Assembly: GCA_946557785.1 (NCBI GenBank)
Contig: CAMNTH010000015.1
Span: forward strand, 1-64,000
Reading direction: 5' to 3'
DNA from: an uncultured Blautia sp.
Lineage (GTDB): Bacteria > Bacillota > Clostridia > Lachnospirales > Lachnospiraceae
DNA: 64,000 nt
The notes under the pieces were generated by a model. The model was given only the letters and a program-made list of their open reading frames with translations, did no database searches and was not told the DNA's origin. Position 1 is the stretch's first letter, and each line of letters opens with the position of its first letter. Made by a program: the position numbers and the translations under genes. Positions 42,448 to 52,281 of this stretch are shown in pieces.

Positions 42448-43470
<1,023 letters not shown>

Positions 43471-43528
43471 GAAATTTGTGTAGATTAAATGGATCAGATT
43501 AACTGACAATTAACAGGAGAGTAAAATC

Positions 43529-44716
43529 ATGAATGTATTGGTAATTAATTGCGGAAGTTCTTCCTTAAAATATCAGCTTATTAACTCGGACACAGAGGCA
43601 GTTCTTGCAAAAGGTCTCTGCGAGAGAATCGGCATTGACGGAAGATTGGTATATCAGAAAACAGGCTGCGATAAAGAAATCACAGAAGCAGCAATGCCTA
43701 CTCATAAAGAAGCGATCCAGATGGTTCTTAATGCCCTTACAAACGAAAAGACAGGTGCTATTGCAAGCCTTCAGGAAGTGAATGCAATCGGTCACCGTGT
43801 GGTACACGGCGGAGAAAAATTTGCTTCCTCAGCAGTGATCACTGATGAGATGATTGCAGCAGTAGAAGAGTGCAATGAACTTGCTCCTCTGCACAATCCT
43901 GCAAACCTGATCGGTATCCGTGTGTGTGCAGAACTGATGCCTGGCGTACCTCAGGTTGGTGTATTTGATACCGCTTTCCATCAGACTATGCCTGCAAAAG
44001 CATATCTCTATGGTCTGCCCATTGAATACTACAAGAATTACAAAGTAAGAAGATACGGTTTCCACGGAACATCCCACAGCTTCGTTTCCAAACGTGCTGT
44101 ACAGTTCCTTGGCCTTGATAAGGACAACTCAAAGGTAATCGTTTGCCATCTTGGAAACGGTTCCTCCATCAGTGCTGTTGTAAATGGCAAATGCGTAGAT
44201 ACCACTATGGGTCTTACTCCGCTGGAAGGTGTTGTTATGGGTACTCGTTCTGGTAATATTGACCCGGCTATTATGGAATACATCGGAAAGAAAGAAAATC
44301 TGGATCTTGCGGGTGTTATGAATGTCCTGAATAAAAAATCAGGCCTTCAGGGTATGTCTGGCGTTTCCAGTGATATGCGTGATATTGACGCTGCTATTGA
44401 AGCTGGAAATGAGGATGCTAAGAATGCATACGATGTTCTTTGCTATGGAATCGCAAAATTCGTAGGCGGTTATGTGGCTGCTATGAATGGTGTGGATGCC
44501 ATTGTATTTACCGCTGGTATCGGTGAGAATGCAGCCAATGTTCGTGAGACAGTCTGCTCTTATCTTGGATACTTAGGAATTACTGTTGATGCTGAAGCAA
44601 ACAAGGTTCGGGGAGAAGAGAAAGTAATCTCCACAGCAGATTCTAAAGTAAAGGTTGCTGTAATTCCTACAAACGAAGAACTTGCAATCTGCAGAGAAAC
44701 CGTAGCACTTGTATAG
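43529..44716 (+). CDS. ackA: Acetate kinase
   Basis: MNVLVINCGSSSLKYQLI, RRYGFHGTSHSFVS, HLGNGSSISAV. Confidence 0.97.
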   Translation: MNVLVINCGSSSLKYQLINSDTEAVLAKGLCERIGIDGRLVYQKTGCDKEITEAAMPTHKEAIQMVLNALTNEKTGAIASLQEVNAIGHRVVHGGEKFASSAVITDEMIAAVEECNELAPLHNPANLIGIRVCAELMPGVPQVGVFDTAFHQTMPAKAYLYGLPIEYYKNYKVRRYGFHGTSHSFVSKRAVQFLGLDKDNSKVIVCHLGNGSSISAVVNGKCVDTTMGLTPLEGVVMGTRSGNIDPAIMEYIGKKENLDLAGVMNVLNKKSGLQGMSGVSSDMRDIDAAIEAGNEDAKNAYDVLCYGIAKFVGGYVAAMNGVDAIVFTAGIGENAANVRETVCSYLGYLGITVDAEANKVRGEEKVISTADSKVKVAVIPTNEELAICRETVALV

Positions 44717-44732
44717 ATAAAGAAAATATTCG

Positions 44733-44761
44733 TTGACAAATACTGGCGGGATATGTATAAT
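44733..44761 (+). promoter_or_regulatory. Sigma-A-type promoter of yceD-rpmF
   Basis: TTGACA-N17-TATAAT. Confidence 0.7.
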
Positions 44762-44787
44762 TTATTAGGTGTGGATAGGAGATAATT

Positions 44788-45315
44788 ATGCAGATACATT
44801 TATCAGAAATTTCATCCTGTGATGGGAAATGTGTCCAATACTCCGCAGCATTTGAGATGGATACTATTACCTTTCAGTCGGGAAGCTATCCGATTCTTCA
44901 TAAGAATCCCATAGAGCTGACTATTACGAATACAGGCAATAAGGTTCTGGAAATCGAAGGTGCGGGAGAGCTTACTGTTGGGATTCCCTGTGACCGCTGT
45001 CTTTTGGAAGTGGCTGTCTGCATTCCGTTTTCTTTTCAGAGGAAGCTGGATATGAAGCTTACGGATGAAGATCGGATTCATGATTTGGATGAGAAGAGCT
45101 ATCTCACTGGTATGGACCTGGATGTGGACCGGCTGGTCTATCTTGAGGTACTGATGAGCTGGCCTTTGAAGGTCTTGTGTAAGGAAGACTGCAAAGGATT
45201 ATGCAGCCGGTGCGGAAAGAATCTGAATGAAGGTTCCTGTGATTGTACAGATGAACCTAAGGATCCCCGTATGGCAGCTATCAGTGATATATTTAGTAAA
45301 TTTAAGGAGGTGTAA
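44788..45315 (+). CDS. DUF177/YceD family protein
   Basis: CDRCLLEV, LCKEDCKGLCSRCGKNLNEGSCDC; directly upstream of rpmF. Confidence 0.88.
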   Translation: MQIHLSEISSCDGKCVQYSAAFEMDTITFQSGSYPILHKNPIELTITNTGNKVLEIEGAGELTVGIPCDRCLLEVAVCIPFSFQRKLDMKLTDEDRIHDLDEKSYLTGMDLDVDRLVYLEVLMSWPLKVLCKEDCKGLCSRCGKNLNEGSCDCTDEPKDPRMAAISDIFSKFKEV

Positions 45316-45318
45316 TAT

Positions 45319-45501
45319 ATGTCCATCTGTCCAAAGAATAAATCATCTAAAGCAAGACGCGATAAGAGAAGAGCAAACTGGAAAATGAGCGCTCCGAACT
45401 TGGTAAAATGCAGCAAATGTGGTGCTCTGATGATGCCTCACAGAGTTTGCAAGGCTTGCGGAAGCTACAACAAAAAAGAAATCATTAAGATTGAAGACTA
45501 A
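45319..45501 (+). CDS. rpmF: 50S ribosomal protein L32
   Basis: MSICPKNKSSKARRDKRRANWKMSAPNLVKCSKCGALMMPHRVCKACGSYNKKEII. Confidence 0.95.
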   Translation: MSICPKNKSSKARRDKRRANWKMSAPNLVKCSKCGALMMPHRVCKACGSYNKKEIIKIED

Positions 45502-45557: not shown

Positions 45558-45612
45558 TCAAAAAAGGTCGTCTTTTGTCGAACGAATTATAAGATAAAAT
45601 CGGGAAAATGGA

Positions 45613-45641
45613 TTGACATTTTTCTGCATGGAGTTTAAGAT
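45613..45641 (+). promoter_or_regulatory. Putative sigma-A promoter of the sipW operon
   Basis: TTGACA-N17-TAAGAT; implies a ~300 nt 5' leader. Confidence 0.6.
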
Positions 45642-45860
45642 AATTACATCTTAAATAACAAACGCTTCTGTTTCAGATTCTATTGATTCCGAAGGTTCAT
45701 TCAAGATTCCATATAACAACATATTTATCATTTAATAATTGATCTGCAATGACTATATTTTCTGTTATTATTCAAATTTACTTTACTTCATTCAAAATTT
45801 CCAAATGGACTCACTAATGCCTCTTGCAGGCAGCTTAGATTTTATATTTTTTAAGGAGGG

Positions 45861-45908
45861 ATGCTTTTGCCAAAAGAGTGCAGCAGACGTTCTCCGCCTG
45901 CTGAGTAG
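45861..45908 (+). other. Candidate leader mini-ORF (MLLPKECSRRSPPAE, or TTG start at 45867 giving 13 aa)
   Basis: Strong SD AAGGAGG at 45853-45859 with 7-nt spacing to TTG; TAG stop 45906-45908; overlaps hairpin CAGCAG/CTGCTG. Confidence 0.35.
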
Positions 45909-45952
45909 AGATTTATTGTGTTTACAAGTAAATACGAGGAAAAGGAGCGGCT

Positions 45953-46468
45953 ATGAAATTCATAAAATGGATTCTTAACGGGCTTGCAGGATGTATTGTA
46001 CTTTTTGGTGCAGCAATGCTGATTTTGTGCATGTCTGGTATTAGGCCTTATGCAGTGCTGTCCGGTTCTATGGAGCCGGAGATTGCAGCAGGTGGAATGG
46101 TATTTACCAATACAAGGGAGAGACAGCCAAAAGAGGGTGACATTGTTACATACCGTCTGAACGGAACTACGGTTACCCATCGGGTATTCCGCTGGACTGA
46201 AGATGGCTGTATCACTAAGGGTGATGCGAACCAGGAAGAAGATGCAAATCCTGTCCTTCCTTCCCAGATTCTGGGAACGGTCTGCTTTTCTTTGCCTATT
46301 CTAGGCTTTGTCGTTTCCTATCTTCAGGAGCAGACAACGATCCTTCTGATGACCGCTGTGTTTGCTTCCACATTTCTTTTAGAATCCATGCCCGTTATGA
46401 GACGGCAAACATCTTCAACAGGAAAAAAGGTAAAAGGAGAGCGCAGGGGAAAATGCGCGGAGAAGTGA
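45953..46468 (+). CDS. sipW: Signal peptidase I, SipW/ER type
   Basis: VLSGSMEPEIAAGGMVFT, GDIVTYRLNGTTVTHRV (Ser/His type), two TM segments. Confidence 0.9.
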   Translation: MKFIKWILNGLAGCIVLFGAAMLILCMSGIRPYAVLSGSMEPEIAAGGMVFTNTRERQPKEGDIVTYRLNGTTVTHRVFRWTEDGCITKGDANQEEDANPVLPSQILGTVCFSLPILGFVVSYLQEQTTILLMTAVFASTFLLESMPVMRRQTSSTGKKVKGERRGKCAEK

Positions 46469-46469
46469 C

Positions 46470-47117
46470 ATGAAAATAAGAAGAACATTTGCAAAAACGG
46501 CGGCTGTCTGCTGTGCAGTAGGCGCATTGGCTGCAGGCGGAACTATGGCCTATTTAACAGATTACGATAAAACAGTAAATGAATTTGCGATTGGAAAAGT
46601 GGATATCCAGCTGCAGGAACCCAACTGGAAGCCGGAGGAAAATACGAAGCTTGAGCCGTCAGAGCAGATTCGGAAGGATCCGCAGGTGAAAAATGTGGGA
46701 AAGAATGATGCATTTGTTTATTTGGAGGTATCCATTCCTACGGCAGATGTAATCACGGCAGATGCATCAGGAAATCGGATCGGCAGGAAAAATACGGAGC
46801 TATTTGCTTTTGAAAAAAAGGCAGACTGGACTTTGCTGGAATCAAAAACTTCAGGGCAGAACAAGGTTTATACCTTTTCGTATAATAAAATCCTGAAACC
46901 AGGGCAGACCAGTATGTCCCTATTTGATACAGTTACCTTTGCCAATATCATTGAAGGGCAATTAGACACCAGGCAGTTTACCGTGCCGGTAAAAGCTTAT
47001 GCCATTCAAACGGTAAATACCGGAGGGGATGCAGGGACGATTGTCCAGCAGGCTGCCTCTGCATATCAAAAATACGTGAAGCAAAACAACGGACAGGCCG
47101 GTGAGGTGACAAAATGA
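46470..47117 (+). CDS. SipW-dependent-type signal peptide protein (TasA/CalY-like)
   Basis: VGALAAGGTMAYLTDYDKTVNEFAIGKVDIQLQEPNW: SipW-type signal sequence and TasA-like strand. Confidence 0.82.
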   Translation: MKIRRTFAKTAAVCCAVGALAAGGTMAYLTDYDKTVNEFAIGKVDIQLQEPNWKPEENTKLEPSEQIRKDPQVKNVGKNDAFVYLEVSIPTADVITADASGNRIGRKNTELFAFEKKADWTLLESKTSGQNKVYTFSYNKILKPGQTSMSLFDTVTFANIIEGQLDTRQFTVPVKAYAIQTVNTGGDAGTIVQQAASAYQKYVKQNNGQAGEVTK

Positions 47118-47683
47118 AGGGGCATAAGATACATAAGTCCGTGTATGTCATTTCTGTGGTGATGATCTTGGGTATTGGGGGAACCGGGGCTTATTTCAGT
47201 GATTTTGACCAGGCTGAAAACCGTGTGGCTGTAGGGCGGAATACAACAGAAATCCATGAGGAATTTCCGGACCCTCCGGATCCGGGAGAGAAAGAAAAGC
47301 CCGAATATAAAAAAACAGTATGGGTAGGAAATCATTCTTCCCAAGAAAAGGGCTTTAATGTGGAGTGCTATGTGCGCATTAGTTTATCCTATTCCAACTA
47401 TGACATTGGTAGGGCAGTAACCCTGCTGGGGCTTGACACTGCAAATTGGATTTATAATGTTGAGGATGGATATTACTATTACAGAAAGCCTTTGAAGGAG
47501 GGGGAAGCTTCCTCTGCATTGTTTACCGGATTTCAGATCGATAGGAGCAAACTGGAAAAGCTTTATCTGGATACCATAGATGATTTTCAGATAAATGTTT
47601 ATGAGGAATCCGTAAGCGCTTTGGGATTTAAAGACTATCAGTCTGCTTGGAGGTTTTATGGAAATCCCATTGGAACTGCTTAG
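47114..47683 (+). CDS. SipW-dependent-type signal peptide protein
   Basis: VVMILGIGGTGAYFSDFDQAENRVAVG; ATGA overlap with previous CDS. Confidence 0.78.
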   Translation: MKGHKIHKSVYVISVVMILGIGGTGAYFSDFDQAENRVAVGRNTTEIHEEFPDPPDPGEKEKPEYKKTVWVGNHSSQEKGFNVECYVRISLSYSNYDIGRAVTLLGLDTANWIYNVEDGYYYYRKPLKEGEASSALFTGFQIDRSKLEKLYLDTIDDFQINVYEESVSALGFKDYQSAWRFYGNPIGTA

Positions 47684-47699
47684 GGAAGGGGGGACCGAT

Positions 47700-48914
47700 T
47701 TGAAAATACGGAAACGAACGATGATTCTTCTGGCAGCAGCTGCAATGATTTTGGGAATAACCGGAACTTATGGATACTTTTCGGATATTGTGGCAGTAAC
47801 CAACCGTATTGCCCTTGGAGACGTAGACATTAGCCTGAAAGAGTATGAAATAGTACAGGGGAAAGAAGTAGTTTATACCAATCCCAAAGCAGTTCTTCCG
47901 GGAGATGTTATTTCCAAGATTCCCCGCATTACCAACCATGGGGAACCCTGCTGGGTGAGAGCAAGGATTTCCTACGAAAATGATAGAAGGGAACTGGAAT
48001 CCCTGTCCGATGAAAATCTTATGGGGATGCCCTATGGCTGGGTGAAGCAGGGGGAATATTACTATTACACAGAGATTTTAAAAAAGGGAGAGACTGTAAC
48101 CCTCTTTCAGGAATTGGAGATTCCATCAGACTGGACAGAGGAACACTCACTGCAGAGACTTCAGGTGGATATCCAGGCAGACGCTATACAGTCAGCTAAT
48201 TTTCAGCCGGATTTCAGCGCCATGTCTCCCTGGGGAAACCAAGAAATCGAACTCTGCATTCATGAAGAAAACGGAGAGATGATATCCAGGAAAGAAAAGG
48301 TAAAGCTTTCTGTAGAATTTAACGGAAGTGCGCATAAGCTGCTGGCTGTGCCGAAGGATTTCTTTGGGAATATGGGGACAGCTATGCCGGGAGACGTATT
48401 CCGGGATTCTGTCATTGTTTCCAATACTACAGGAAACACTGCAGAAATATTCTTTCATACAGGGCTGGTTTGCCAGAGGGCTGACAGAATGGATCTTCTG
48501 AAAAAGCTGCAACTTACCATTGCAATGAATGGGAAAACCATTTATTCAGGAGATCTGCAGGCCGAAAAGCTGAAAACAGATATCTCCCTTGGGAAATTTC
48601 AGTCAGGAGAGGCGGGAACTATGGATTTTATGGTTTCTGTGCCAAAGGAACTGAATAATGCATATGCTCTTCGGGATACGGCTGTAAAATGGTATTTTAC
48701 CGTATATGAAGATGAGAAACACACTGCAGAAGCGCCAGGAAAGGAAGGATGGAATGCTCCGGGCTCGCCTGGAAATAAAGTTTTGTCGCAGAATAGTTCC
48801 TCTGTAAAAACCGGGGACGAATCTCCGATTTTATTTATGGGGCTTTTAACCTTTTTATCAGCATTGATCCTGGTAACTGTCCTGATAGTGAAAAAGAGAG
48901 GTAAGAAACAGTGA
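47700..48914 (+). CDS. SipW-dependent-type signal peptide protein with sortase-signal-like C-terminus
   Basis: Probable TTG start 47700 after GGGG-rich SD; MILGITGTYGYFSDIVAVTNRIALGDVDISL; C-term SVKTGDESPILFMGLLTFLSALILVTVLIVKKRGKKQ. Confidence 0.78.
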   Translation: MKIRKRTMILLAAAAMILGITGTYGYFSDIVAVTNRIALGDVDISLKEYEIVQGKEVVYTNPKAVLPGDVISKIPRITNHGEPCWVRARISYENDRRELESLSDENLMGMPYGWVKQGEYYYYTEILKKGETVTLFQELEIPSDWTEEHSLQRLQVDIQADAIQSANFQPDFSAMSPWGNQEIELCIHEENGEMISRKEKVKLSVEFNGSAHKLLAVPKDFFGNMGTAMPGDVFRDSVIVSNTTGNTAEIFFHTGLVCQRADRMDLLKKLQLTIAMNGKTIYSGDLQAEKLKTDISLGKFQSGEAGTMDFMVSVPKELNNAYALRDTAVKWYFTVYEDEKHTAEAPGKEGWNAPGSPGNKVLSQNSSSVKTGDESPILFMGLLTFLSALILVTVLIVKKRGKKQ

Positions 48915-51900
48915 AAAAAAGGATGATAAGCTTATTTTTCGCAGGCGCTGTGACCATGATGTCTGTAGCAGTCCCGGCTTTTGGGGCGGATAGAGATACA
49001 TGGAAGGAAAAAACTGCGGAATATGCAGGTTGGGAAATACAAGGGGAGGAGATTCCTTTGGAAGAGGCGAATGCGGGAGAAAAACCGGCAGATATAGAAG
49101 AACCGGAAGACTTTGCAGATACAGAGGATCCGGGTGAACCAGTCAAATCAGAAGAGACGGAAGGACCTAATAATCAGGATTTTGAAAATTGGGAAGAAGA
49201 AGATCTGTATGAGAACTTCGATTTCACATGGTTTGATGAGGAAACTGCAGATCTGATTCATGCAGACACGCCGGAAACAGAAGAGCTTGTTGAGGAGATT
49301 AAGTCAGGGGAGGTTCTGGCTCTGGCACCTATTGAGAATGTAACGATGGAAAGAGCAGCTATGGTTGGGACTACACCAGAAAATGAAGCCATCAGTCTGG
49401 CAGCAGGAACCAGTTCCTTTACATTACGCATAGGAGCCTACAACAATATGGATGAGGTTTGGGTGAATAATGGTGCTTCACTGGATCATTTTGGAACTGT
49501 ATACAGGGAAATCGTATATACAGATGATGAAGGCACGACTAGAAAAGCACCGGTTTATTGCATGAATGCAAGCAAAAGCGGTCCTTTAAGTCCCCAGGAA
49601 GTGAAGGATGAAGCAATCAAAGTCCTTTCTGATGCCAGTTTGAAAAAGATTCTTTATTTTGGGTATGGTGGTCCAGGAGATGTTTCAGACAGCTATGACC
49701 CTACATGCAGCCATTGTGACTGGTCTAAAAAAGAGAACAGGTATGTGCTGACCCATTATGCATTGAGTAAGCTTTATTCCAATGATGTTGCAGGAGCCAC
49801 GGCAGCGGAATGCGAGCATATAGGATTGAACAGATGGATCAGTAAATTGACTTCCCTGGCAGTTCCCAATGTTATGGATCTGAGATTTTATGGAAAGGAT
49901 ACCAATGGAGATACGGTATCCGCAAAAGATATGTCCGGAAATTTAACATATTATAAAGCAGTTCCAGAGTCCTTATCCTGGACCGGAATGAAAAAAGGCG
50001 TACAGATTTCCGGCATCTACAGACTGACTTCCAGCCTGGAGAAGAACGGAATCCGATTTACCAAAGGAACTTCCGATTCCTGGATGATGGGCTACTGGAC
50101 AAGCGGAGAAGACTATACTGCCCGGGGAATGGGAAATCCCAGGATTCTGGGAGAAGGAAAAAGCGTTACCCTTTATAAAGGAGCAAGAATCCGTTTTGCA
50201 TTTCCTTATAATGTTACAGGAAACCAGAAAATGACCTATACATCCATTCTAAAACCGGTGGAATATATTGCCATCAGTACTTCCGTTTTGCTGAACCAAA
50301 GCGGAATGCAGGATTTGGGAACCTATTACCATGAAGGAAAGAGGGAGACGCTGAGTCTGACATTTCGCCCATCTCCATTTGGAACGGTAATTCTTAAAAA
50401 GACTGCTGACCAGGATCCCAACATAAAAATCCAGGGAGCCGGATATCAGCTGAAAGCAGGGGAAGATATTATTTCCAATGGAACGGTTGTTTTAAAGAAG
50501 GGTGAGAAAATGGCAGGGGGATATACAGACCAACAGGGAGGAATTACCTTTTCTGATATTCCAGCAGGAAAGTATTACCTGGTAGAAGTAGGAGCAAAGG
50601 AAGGATCAGAGGCAGAGAAATATTTGGTGGATACCATGAAACATCCGGTTACGGTGATAAAGAATACTTCTTCAACAGTGGCTGTTTCGGAGATTCCGGA
50701 TATACAAGGAAGGGTTTCCATCCGCAAAAAAATCAAGAATACGGAACTGAACCTGGAAGGTGCGGAGTTTACCCTGTATTCTTACAGCAAAAGCAGCGGC
50801 AAGTATACCAACGGAGTAAAACTTACATATGATACTTCCTCCAGGCGGTACATATCTGAGAATTTTTGCTATATGCCTGACAACCAGGGGAGATTCCTGG
50901 TGGAAGAAACGAAAAATCCAGAAGGGTTTACAGGAACCTTTCGGGAGGAATTTTCTCTTACGAAACCGGGACTGGAGGAATTGTTTGAATTTACAGCAGA
51001 AAATACAACTGCTCCCATGCGTGTGGAAATTACCAAAGTAGATTCTGTTACAAGAGAGATTTTGGAGGATGCGGAATTTTCCATTTATGAATGGGATGCT
51101 GTAAAGCAGGCGTATAAAAACATTGGAGAGCCATTGGCATTCCAAAAAGAAGTAAGAAAATATCAAAGCAGGGAGCTGAAGATCACAGACTCCAATCAAG
51201 GACGTTTTCGGGTAGAAGAAACAAGGCCTCCGGAAGGATATACCGGAAAATTTGTACAGGAGATCAATCTGTACGATGGAAATAGAAAGCTGCAGTTTAC
51301 AGCAGAAAATACACCGATTCCACAGAAAAAGGGAAGCATTCAAATTAGAAAAACCGATTCTGTAAAAGGAGCCATTCTATCTGACGCAGAGTTTACTATT
51401 TCCCAGTACAATACGTTTTCCGGGAAATATGAAAATACTCTTGGCGCTGCTTCCAAGCTTGCTTATGATGAAAAAAGCCAGCTGTATATTTCCGGGGATC
51501 TGACTGTTAATAAAAGCAATGGAGGGAAATTCAAAGTAACAGAAACAAAAGCTCCCCAAGGTTACATAGGAGGCTGGGAGCGGGAATTTATCCTTACAGA
51601 GGATAATCTCCATCCGGAACCCTTTGAAGCAGTGAACGAACCGGATAGACCTCCCTTAACAGAAATCACGGTAACCAAAAAGATAAAAGAAAGGGAAATT
51701 CTCTGGGATCATGGAAATCCTGTCTTTTCTTTTACAGCAGAGGGAATAGACGATAGTGGCATCAGCAGGAAATATGAAAATTTTGTGTGTTTTTCTCCCG
51801 GAGGGTATACGGTGGACGAGGATGGATATGGAGTGCTGAAAATTACCTTCCGGAATGTACCGGCAGGTCAGTATACCATATATGAAAAACCGGTTTTATA

Positions 51901-52123
51901 CTATTATCTTACAGATGCCATAGCCAATACATCGAACGTTTCTATTATAAAAGGCGACAGTCCGGCTTATGGAAAAACACCAAAATCCATTGCCTATGGG
52001 AAGCTTCGTCTGACAAAAGACGAAAAGAAAGCAGCCATTACATTTGTGAATACAAAGGGAAGATACGATCGTTATATTCACAATGATGTGGTAAAAAATA
52101 GAGTTCCTGTTTCATTTGAATAA
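48911..52123 (+). CDS. Large secreted surface protein with N-terminal thioester-like domain and several Cna-B/SpaA-type domains
   Basis: Sec signal MKKRMISLFFAGAVTMMSVAVPAFGA; VYCMN...LTHYALSKLY thioester-domain-like; repeats of AEFTLY...FLVEETKNPEGFTG; GTG start overlapping previous stop. Confidence 0.8.
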   Translation: MKKRMISLFFAGAVTMMSVAVPAFGADRDTWKEKTAEYAGWEIQGEEIPLEEANAGEKPADIEEPEDFADTEDPGEPVKSEETEGPNNQDFENWEEEDLYENFDFTWFDEETADLIHADTPETEELVEEIKSGEVLALAPIENVTMERAAMVGTTPENEAISLAAGTSSFTLRIGAYNNMDEVWVNNGASLDHFGTVYREIVYTDDEGTTRKAPVYCMNASKSGPLSPQEVKDEAIKVLSDASLKKILYFGYGGPGDVSDSYDPTCSHCDWSKKENRYVLTHYALSKLYSNDVAGATAAECEHIGLNRWISKLTSLAVPNVMDLRFYGKDTNGDTVSAKDMSGNLTYYKAVPESLSWTGMKKGVQISGIYRLTSSLEKNGIRFTKGTSDSWMMGYWTSGEDYTARGMGNPRILGEGKSVTLYKGARIRFAFPYNVTGNQKMTYTSILKPVEYIAISTSVLLNQSGMQDLGTYYHEGKRETLSLTFRPSPFGTVILKKTADQDPNIKIQGAGYQLKAGEDIISNGTVVLKKGEKMAGGYTDQQGGITFSDIPAGKYYLVEVGAKEGSEAEKYLVDTMKHPVTVIKNTSSTVAVSEIPDIQGRVSIRKKIKNTELNLEGAEFTLYSYSKSSGKYTNGVKLTYDTSSRRYISENFCYMPDNQGRFLVEETKNPEGFTGTFREEFSLTKPGLEELFEFTAENTTAPMRVEITKVDSVTREILEDAEFSIYEWDAVKQAYKNIGEPLAFQKEVRKYQSRELKITDSNQGRFRVEETRPPEGYTGKFVQEINLYDGNRKLQFTAENTPIPQKKGSIQIRKTDSVKGAILSDAEFTISQYNTFSGKYENTLGAASKLAYDEKSQLYISGDLTVNKSNGGKFKVTETKAPQGYIGGWEREFILTEDNLHPEPFEAVNEPDRPPLTEITVTKKIKEREILWDHGNPVFSFTAEGIDDSGISRKYENFVCFSPGGYTVDEDGYGVLKITFRNVPAGQYTIYEKPVLYYYLTDAIANTSNVSIIKGDSPAYGKTPKSIAYGKLRLTKDEKKAAITFVNTKGRYDRYIHNDVVKNRVPVSFE

Positions 52124-52176: not shown

Positions 52177-52281
52177 TGATATTGATTGAGGAACCCCAAA
52201 AATTGTGATATAATGTGGACATTTGATGAGCACAGGCGCTGGCGAAGCAGTGTGAAACTTAAGAGGAACAGGAGAAGAACC

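Follow-up and report, generated by a model that had tools for sequence, protein, structure and literature searches.

TasA-type fibres are known as scaffolds of the biofilm matrix, and the systems closest to the one reported here have been described in Bacillus subtilis and Clostridium perfringens. In B. subtilis, the donor strand of TasA comprises mature residues 28–38, and the N-terminus of TapA resembles this strand and starts TasA fibres (PMC9674648, PMC10151520). In C. perfringens, the sipW-bsaABC operon gives rise to polymers of BsaA that resist sodium dodecyl sulfate (SDS), and BsaA does not appear outside the cell when SipW is lacking (PMC7395162). Here, we analyzed a 64-kb window (positions 1–64,000 of the forward strand of contig CAMNTH010000015.1, assembly GCA_946557785.1) from an uncultured Blautia sp., in which positions 45,953–52,123 hold an operon of sipW, three genes for TasA-like proteins (genes 2–4) and a gene for a giant adhesin (gene 5). 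We regard the system as a variant TasA/SipW fibre that combines a putative wall anchor and an exchangeable adhesin; the anchor, the donor-like tail of gene 5, the lack of an anchor in gene 5 and the His in place of Gln in its head were missed in an earlier note on this sequence, and a search of a limited literature collection found no paper connecting SipW with Blautia. Our preferred and, we think, probable reading is that the operon makes a donor-strand fibre, with gene 4 as its wall anchor, which is capped by an interchangeable gene 5 adhesin through a mimicked donor strand.

Comparison with described systems

The locus shares with tapA-sipW-tasA of B. subtilis an apparently dedicated SipW, SipW-type signals and a putative donor strand at the mature N-terminus, whereas the B. 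subtilis operon has neither a CnaB adhesin nor a sortase-type anchor. TapA, like gene 5, is an accessory protein with a donor-like strand, and it starts the fibre; however, its donor is N-terminal, while that proposed for gene 5 is C-terminal and sits on a giant adhesin. The C. perfringens sipW-bsaABCRSD operon likewise combines sipW with several secreted proteins and is adjoined by srtB, and the passages considered mention no CnaB, thioester or donor-like tail protein (PMC7395162). The likeness to that operon extends to matches of genes 2 and 3 to the BsaA model TIGR04090, below its cut-off, but bsaRS-like genes, present in C. perfringens, are missing from this operon. CnaB pili that are assembled by sortases, like TIE adhesins, resemble gene 5 in their SpaA/CnaB stalk and TED-type head, and in the match of the gene 5 model to 6fwv, but differ in that gene 5 has no LPXTG, the cluster has no pilin sortase, and the thioester Gln is replaced by His. 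Gram-negative chaperone-usher and type V pili share the donor-strand principle and a tip adhesin by analogy only, since their proteins are unrelated and follow an usher or lipoprotein route rather than the SipW processing predicted here.

A conserved five-gene block

The operon comprises the following open reading frames (ORFs), with lengths in amino acids (aa):
45,953–46,468, plus strand: sipW, 171 aa, SipW-type signal peptidase I (TIGR02228, 77.1 bits; cut-off 51.85)
46,470–47,117, plus strand: gene 2, 215 aa, TasA/BsaA-like fibre subunit with a SipW-type signal (PF12389 29.9, TIGR04090 35.5, TIGR04088 30.8 bits)
47,114–47,683, plus strand: gene 3, 189 aa, second TasA/BsaA-like protein with a SipW-type signal (TIGR04090 40.5, TIGR04088 26.1 bits)
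47,700–48,914, plus strand: gene 4, 404 aa, TTG start behind GGAAGGGGGG (PF12389 27.6, TIGR04088 27.9 bits)
48,911–52,123, plus strand: gene 5, 1070 aa, GTG start, giant adhesin with a TED_2 head and four SpaA/CnaB domains

The earlier note, made from the sequence alone, had described five tightly coupled genes with an ATGA overlap, a 16-nt gap and a GTGA overlap, and all five ORFs are indeed present with intergenic spacings of +1, −4 (ATGA), +16 and −4 (GTGA) nucleotides (nt); the gap between sipW and gene 2 is thus 1 nt instead of the 2 nt given there. The note had also proposed conserved gene order as a check. Named genomes (of Blautia, Fusicatenibacter, Lacrimispora, Hominisplanchenecus and further genera) were probed with gene 2 only, and a locus was counted as testable if genes 2 and 4 were present with sufficient room downstream; gene 5 was found in 41 of 41 testable loci, so that the CnaB gene does stay with the sipW block. 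The order was sipW-2-3-4-5 in 36 of these loci, while sipW came last in two, lay between genes 4 and 5 in two and went undetected in one. Within the genus, 37 of 60 genomes have gene 5, and in Blautia genomes found via gene 5 the block lies upstream in nearly all cases where the contig allows; a first contig scan with gene 5 alone as the query had given no match. The same neighbourhood recurs in other Lachnospiraceae genera, and in two genomes from another family of the class a gene 5 relative has sipW and genes for TasA-like proteins as neighbours, and one of these proteins carries a sorting motif, PxTGD. All these counts take in related species and so do not represent independent events. Co-function of the five genes is strongly supported.

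Variable head and constant foot of gene 5

Gene 5 encodes, in order, an ordinary signal peptide, an acidic linker, a TED_2 head, four SpaA/CnaB domains, a conserved C-terminal domain and a donor-like tail; three of these parts lie as follows:
49,553–49,855, plus strand: TED_2 "thioester" domain, residues 215–315, with Cys217 present and His282 replacing Gln
51,653–52,048, plus strand: conserved C-terminal domain, residues 915–1046, 46% mean identity, predicted local distance difference test (pLDDT) of the block 84–94 over most of its length
52,073–52,111, plus strand: donor-strand-like tail, residues 1055–1067, YIHNDVVKNRVPV, the best donor-profile window, unstructured in the model

The reading of this protein as a thioester protein with CnaB repeats stood in part: TED_2 (3.4e-12; 46.9 bits, cut-off 27) and four SpaA stretches (6.5e-32) were recovered, and the model has a TED fold, its closest structural neighbour being the Bacillus anthracis TIE protein 6fwv (E 5e-27), but thioester chemistry of the head is doubtful, and the label "thioester adhesin" is not established, because His occupies the position where Gln is expected. 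Among 15 TED_2-type members, Cys217 is invariant and the TQ motif is TH in all, whereas the canonical TQ is retained in four members from other lineages; it is possible that TED_2 heads use a different chemistry. The protein carries no LPXTG, sorting signal or other anchor, and little sequence follows its last folded domain; with no pilin sortase in the cluster either, it does not qualify as part of a sortase-assembled pilus.

Across 35 relatives (36 members in all), mean identity to the gene 5 product of the window was 17–27% in head and stalk, 46% in the C-terminal domain and 53% in the last 20 residues. The heads of the 36 members belong to different families, with TED_2 in 17, AgI/II-C2 in 10, choline-binding in four and TED in two. 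No wall-binding family was detected in the C-terminal domain. Outside the Lachnospiraceae this domain is rare, as a class-wide search located it in 5 of 342 genomes, the window's own among them. The identities and the mix of heads are what one would expect if a binding module that can be exchanged sat on a docking module that stays fixed. In one metagenome-assembled genome, an in-frame stop splits gene 5 into ORFs of 466 and 628 aa, a split that may reflect a misassembly or the loss of the head.

Likeness between the gene 5 tail and the donor strands

The tails of gene 5 follow the pattern Y-S-H-[NT]-D-V-V-x-N-x-I-P-V (in summary form YxHNDVVKNxIPV), and the mature N-termini of genes 2–4 follow [LF]-[ST]-D-x-x-x-x-x-N-x-[FIV]-x-[VL] (YFSDxxxxxNxIAV). 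Both share one register, consisting of an aromatic residue or L, S/T, H or D, five residues, N, x, I/V/F, x and V, with the N present in 60 of 60 tails and 98% of donors. In the window, the mature N-terminus of gene 2 lies at about Y28, with YLTDYDKTVNEFAIG as its putative donor strand, and that of gene 3 is putatively AYFSDFDQAENRVAVG; the tail was compared with FSDFDQAENRVAV of gene 3 and FSDIVAVTNRIAL of gene 4, and in one relative it reads YFTDKTMKTNSIKV, very near a SipW-type mature N-terminus. When a donor profile of genes 2–4, built without gene 5, was run along the gene 5 alignment, the top window was residues 1055–1067, and its score exceeded those of all 2000 column permutations; most of the signal came from genes 3 and 4, the profile from gene 2 alone being weak at the tail. 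The donor motif, which allowed His at the third position and was chosen with the tails already seen, occurred in 56 of the 61 distinct tails of gene 5; among 881 internal windows it was seen in 5, and among 160 other large ORFs in 1. In the AlphaFold2 model of gene 5, residues 1051–1070, past the strand at 1040–1049, are unpaired despite their high conservation; in the model of gene 2, the donor stretch is unpaired as well.

SipW, its predicted substrates and a putative anchor

The prediction of a SipW-type signal peptidase agrees with the TIGR02228 score of sipW, which lies above the cut-off; the Bacillus SipW model NF046067 was not reached (68.5 bits, cut-off 190). The three SipW-type signal sequences that had been proposed are likewise recognized, as genes 2–4 all pass TIGR04088 (cut-off 19). 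In a whole-genome scan, sipW was the sole gene passing the SipW-type peptidase model, and a SipW-type signal above cut-off was found only in genes 2, 3 and 4; this SipW thus appears dedicated to their products, since no other gene in the genome passes the signal or the peptidase cut-off. The CnaB protein is predicted not to be processed by SipW; it has no TIGR04088 match and begins with an ordinary N-terminal signal peptide.

Of the three proteins called TasA-like in the earlier note, those of genes 2 and 4 pass the TasA/camelysin model PF12389 (cut-off 22.5), and gene 3 stays below it at 14.7 bits. The genes of the operon score far below the cut-off of the TasA model NF046066, and genes 2, 3 and 4, with 35.5, 40.5 and 19.8 bits, fall short of that of the BsaA model TIGR04090 (60), which would make them relatives rather than members of the BsaA family. 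The AlphaFold2 model of gene 2 (pLDDT 79.7) is unstructured over residues 1–35 and beta-rich thereafter.

Gene 4 combines a TasA-like N-terminal domain, a second domain without a confident family and a C-terminal sorting-type signal that the earlier note did not notice. This signal has the motif, helix and basic tail that such signals require (SVKTGDE, a membrane helix and KKRGKKQ), and among 24 homologues T371 of the VKTGD motif is invariant and K370 is conserved in at least 90%. A single sortase gene is present in the genome, on another contig; its product has a TLSTC site, and in other genera a TLSTC sortase gene lies within the same locus as the operon. Gene 4 is therefore a putative TasA-like, wall-anchored base.

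Proposed assembly and its alternatives

From the conserved operon and the family assignments, we infer how the fibre may be assembled and how gene 5 may dock, and with which polarity, at tip or base. SipW would cut the three TasA-like proteins immediately ahead of a donor beta-strand, and each freed strand would complete the fold of the next subunit, by donor-strand exchange as in Bacillus TasA. Gene 4 would receive the chain, and the sortase encoded elsewhere in the genome would fix it to the cell wall. The gene 5 product, exported via its ordinary signal peptide, would reserve its N-terminal end for a binding head carried by a CnaB stalk, and its C-terminal copy of a donor strand would plug the sole open groove left in the chain, capping the fibre most likely at the tip. 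As docking would need the C-terminal domain and tail alone, the head could be exchanged between strains.

Several observations weigh against this proposal. The reversed donor profile scores 12.87 at residues 1043–1055, compared with 13.36 for the forward profile at the tail, and in a single-protein test it succeeds in 34 of 61 cases versus 37 of 61 for the forward profile; because the reversed profile scores nearly equally at another segment, the likeness of tail and donor is suggestive and not proof. Most tails carry His at the position where donors carry Asp, and gene 4 retains a donor strand of its own, which a chain running from tip to base would not need. For the model of gene 2, the TasA fibre 8aur is a weak structural match (rank 4, E 3e-3), and gene 2 profiles gave no real match among PDB sequences. 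Since the structural match is weak, it is mainly the sequence models that place genes 2–4 in the TasA fold.

The fibre might also be locked covalently, by an intermolecular, Glu-assisted isopeptide bond between a donor Asn and a Lys that would weld the adhesin on without a sortase. The candidate residues are Asn N37, N36 and N35 in genes 2–4 and N1063 in the gene 5 tail, Lys K69, K67 and K73, and Glu E50, E49 and E48, and this triad is 91–100% conserved; such a bond would explain the BsaA polymers that resist SDS and formic acid and form without a sortase. TasA of B. subtilis, however, keeps the Lys and the Glu but is not known to carry the Asn, so that both residues may be structural, and we regard the covalent bond as a tentative and rather doubtful idea.

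The polarity could be the opposite, with the gene 5 tail acting as a TapA-like, cell-proximal donor in the groove of gene 4, the fibre growing from the donor strand of gene 4, and gene 5 being a wall-linked adhesin beside a matrix fibre. The well-conserved donor strand of gene 4 fits this arrangement, as does the role of TapA in B. subtilis, where it provides the first donor close to the cell, but in some other genera (e.g., locus L027) that strand is degenerate while the gene 5 tail persists, and a variable adhesion head would presumably be most useful distally, which together make this arrangement unlikely. We consider it quite improbable that the tail instead binds the cell wall, the S-layer or a membrane protein and that gene 5 is a separate adhesin sharing only its regulation with the TasA-like fibre. 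This would agree with a tail/donor match that is not unique under the reversed-profile control; on the other hand, gene 5 and the TasA-like genes remain together in different families even when sipW relocates in the block, the gene 5 tail ends, as donor strands begin, outside a folded domain, and the C-terminal domain of gene 5 has no wall-binding family. Chance adjacency of two unrelated systems, each from a generally common family (TasA-like genes and CnaB adhesins), is highly improbable given the 41 of 41 loci, the overlaps of start and stop codons and the same pairing in another Clostridia family, and we rejected it on this synteny, which bears out the earlier view of one device.

If the capped-fibre proposal is true, TasA-type fibres would serve gut commensals (relatives include B. 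luti, B. massiliensis and B. schinkii) as adhesive pili whose head can be exchanged, forming a Gram-positive parallel to tip-adhesin pili, with a short docking tag that is open to testing.

Upstream region and genomic surroundings

Two candidate regulatory elements precede the operon:
45,574–45,582, plus strand: exact Spo0A box, TTTGTCGAA, about 30 nt before the putative −35 and upstream of the operon promoter
45,613–45,641, plus strand: putative sigma-A promoter TTGACA-17-TAAGAT, 312 nt before sipW, 10 of 12 consensus positions

The box matches the Spo0A consensus exactly and is the sole exact copy in the window; an incomplete second copy, GTCG, lies immediately upstream. In relatives, an exact box was enriched upstream of sipW (10 of 42 loci versus 0.35 expected from shuffles), and the genome encodes Spo0A, as seen from a full-length Spo0A_C match. 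The candidate promoter lies after the rpmF region, and its TTGAC is aligned in relatives. The leader of about 310 nt (45,641–45,953) has a good Shine-Dalgarno sequence before sipW and a 13-codon ORF from a TTG at about 45,867; an Rfam search of it returned a chance hit only and no real match. At the other end, the transcription unit probably stops with gene 5, because the GNAT-like gene downstream has its own promoter-like site (52,186–52,214).

In seven loci of Blautia relatives, large proteins with LPXTG-like C-termini (TADxxPxG, a membrane helix and RRKK), absent from the window, are encoded upstream of sipW. Locus L027 of another genus, on its minus strand, likewise has pta-ackA and a DUF177-like gene close to the system, but there the system sits on the opposite side of these genes (compare 42,463–45,500 in the window), which suggests a conserved chromosomal neighbourhood.

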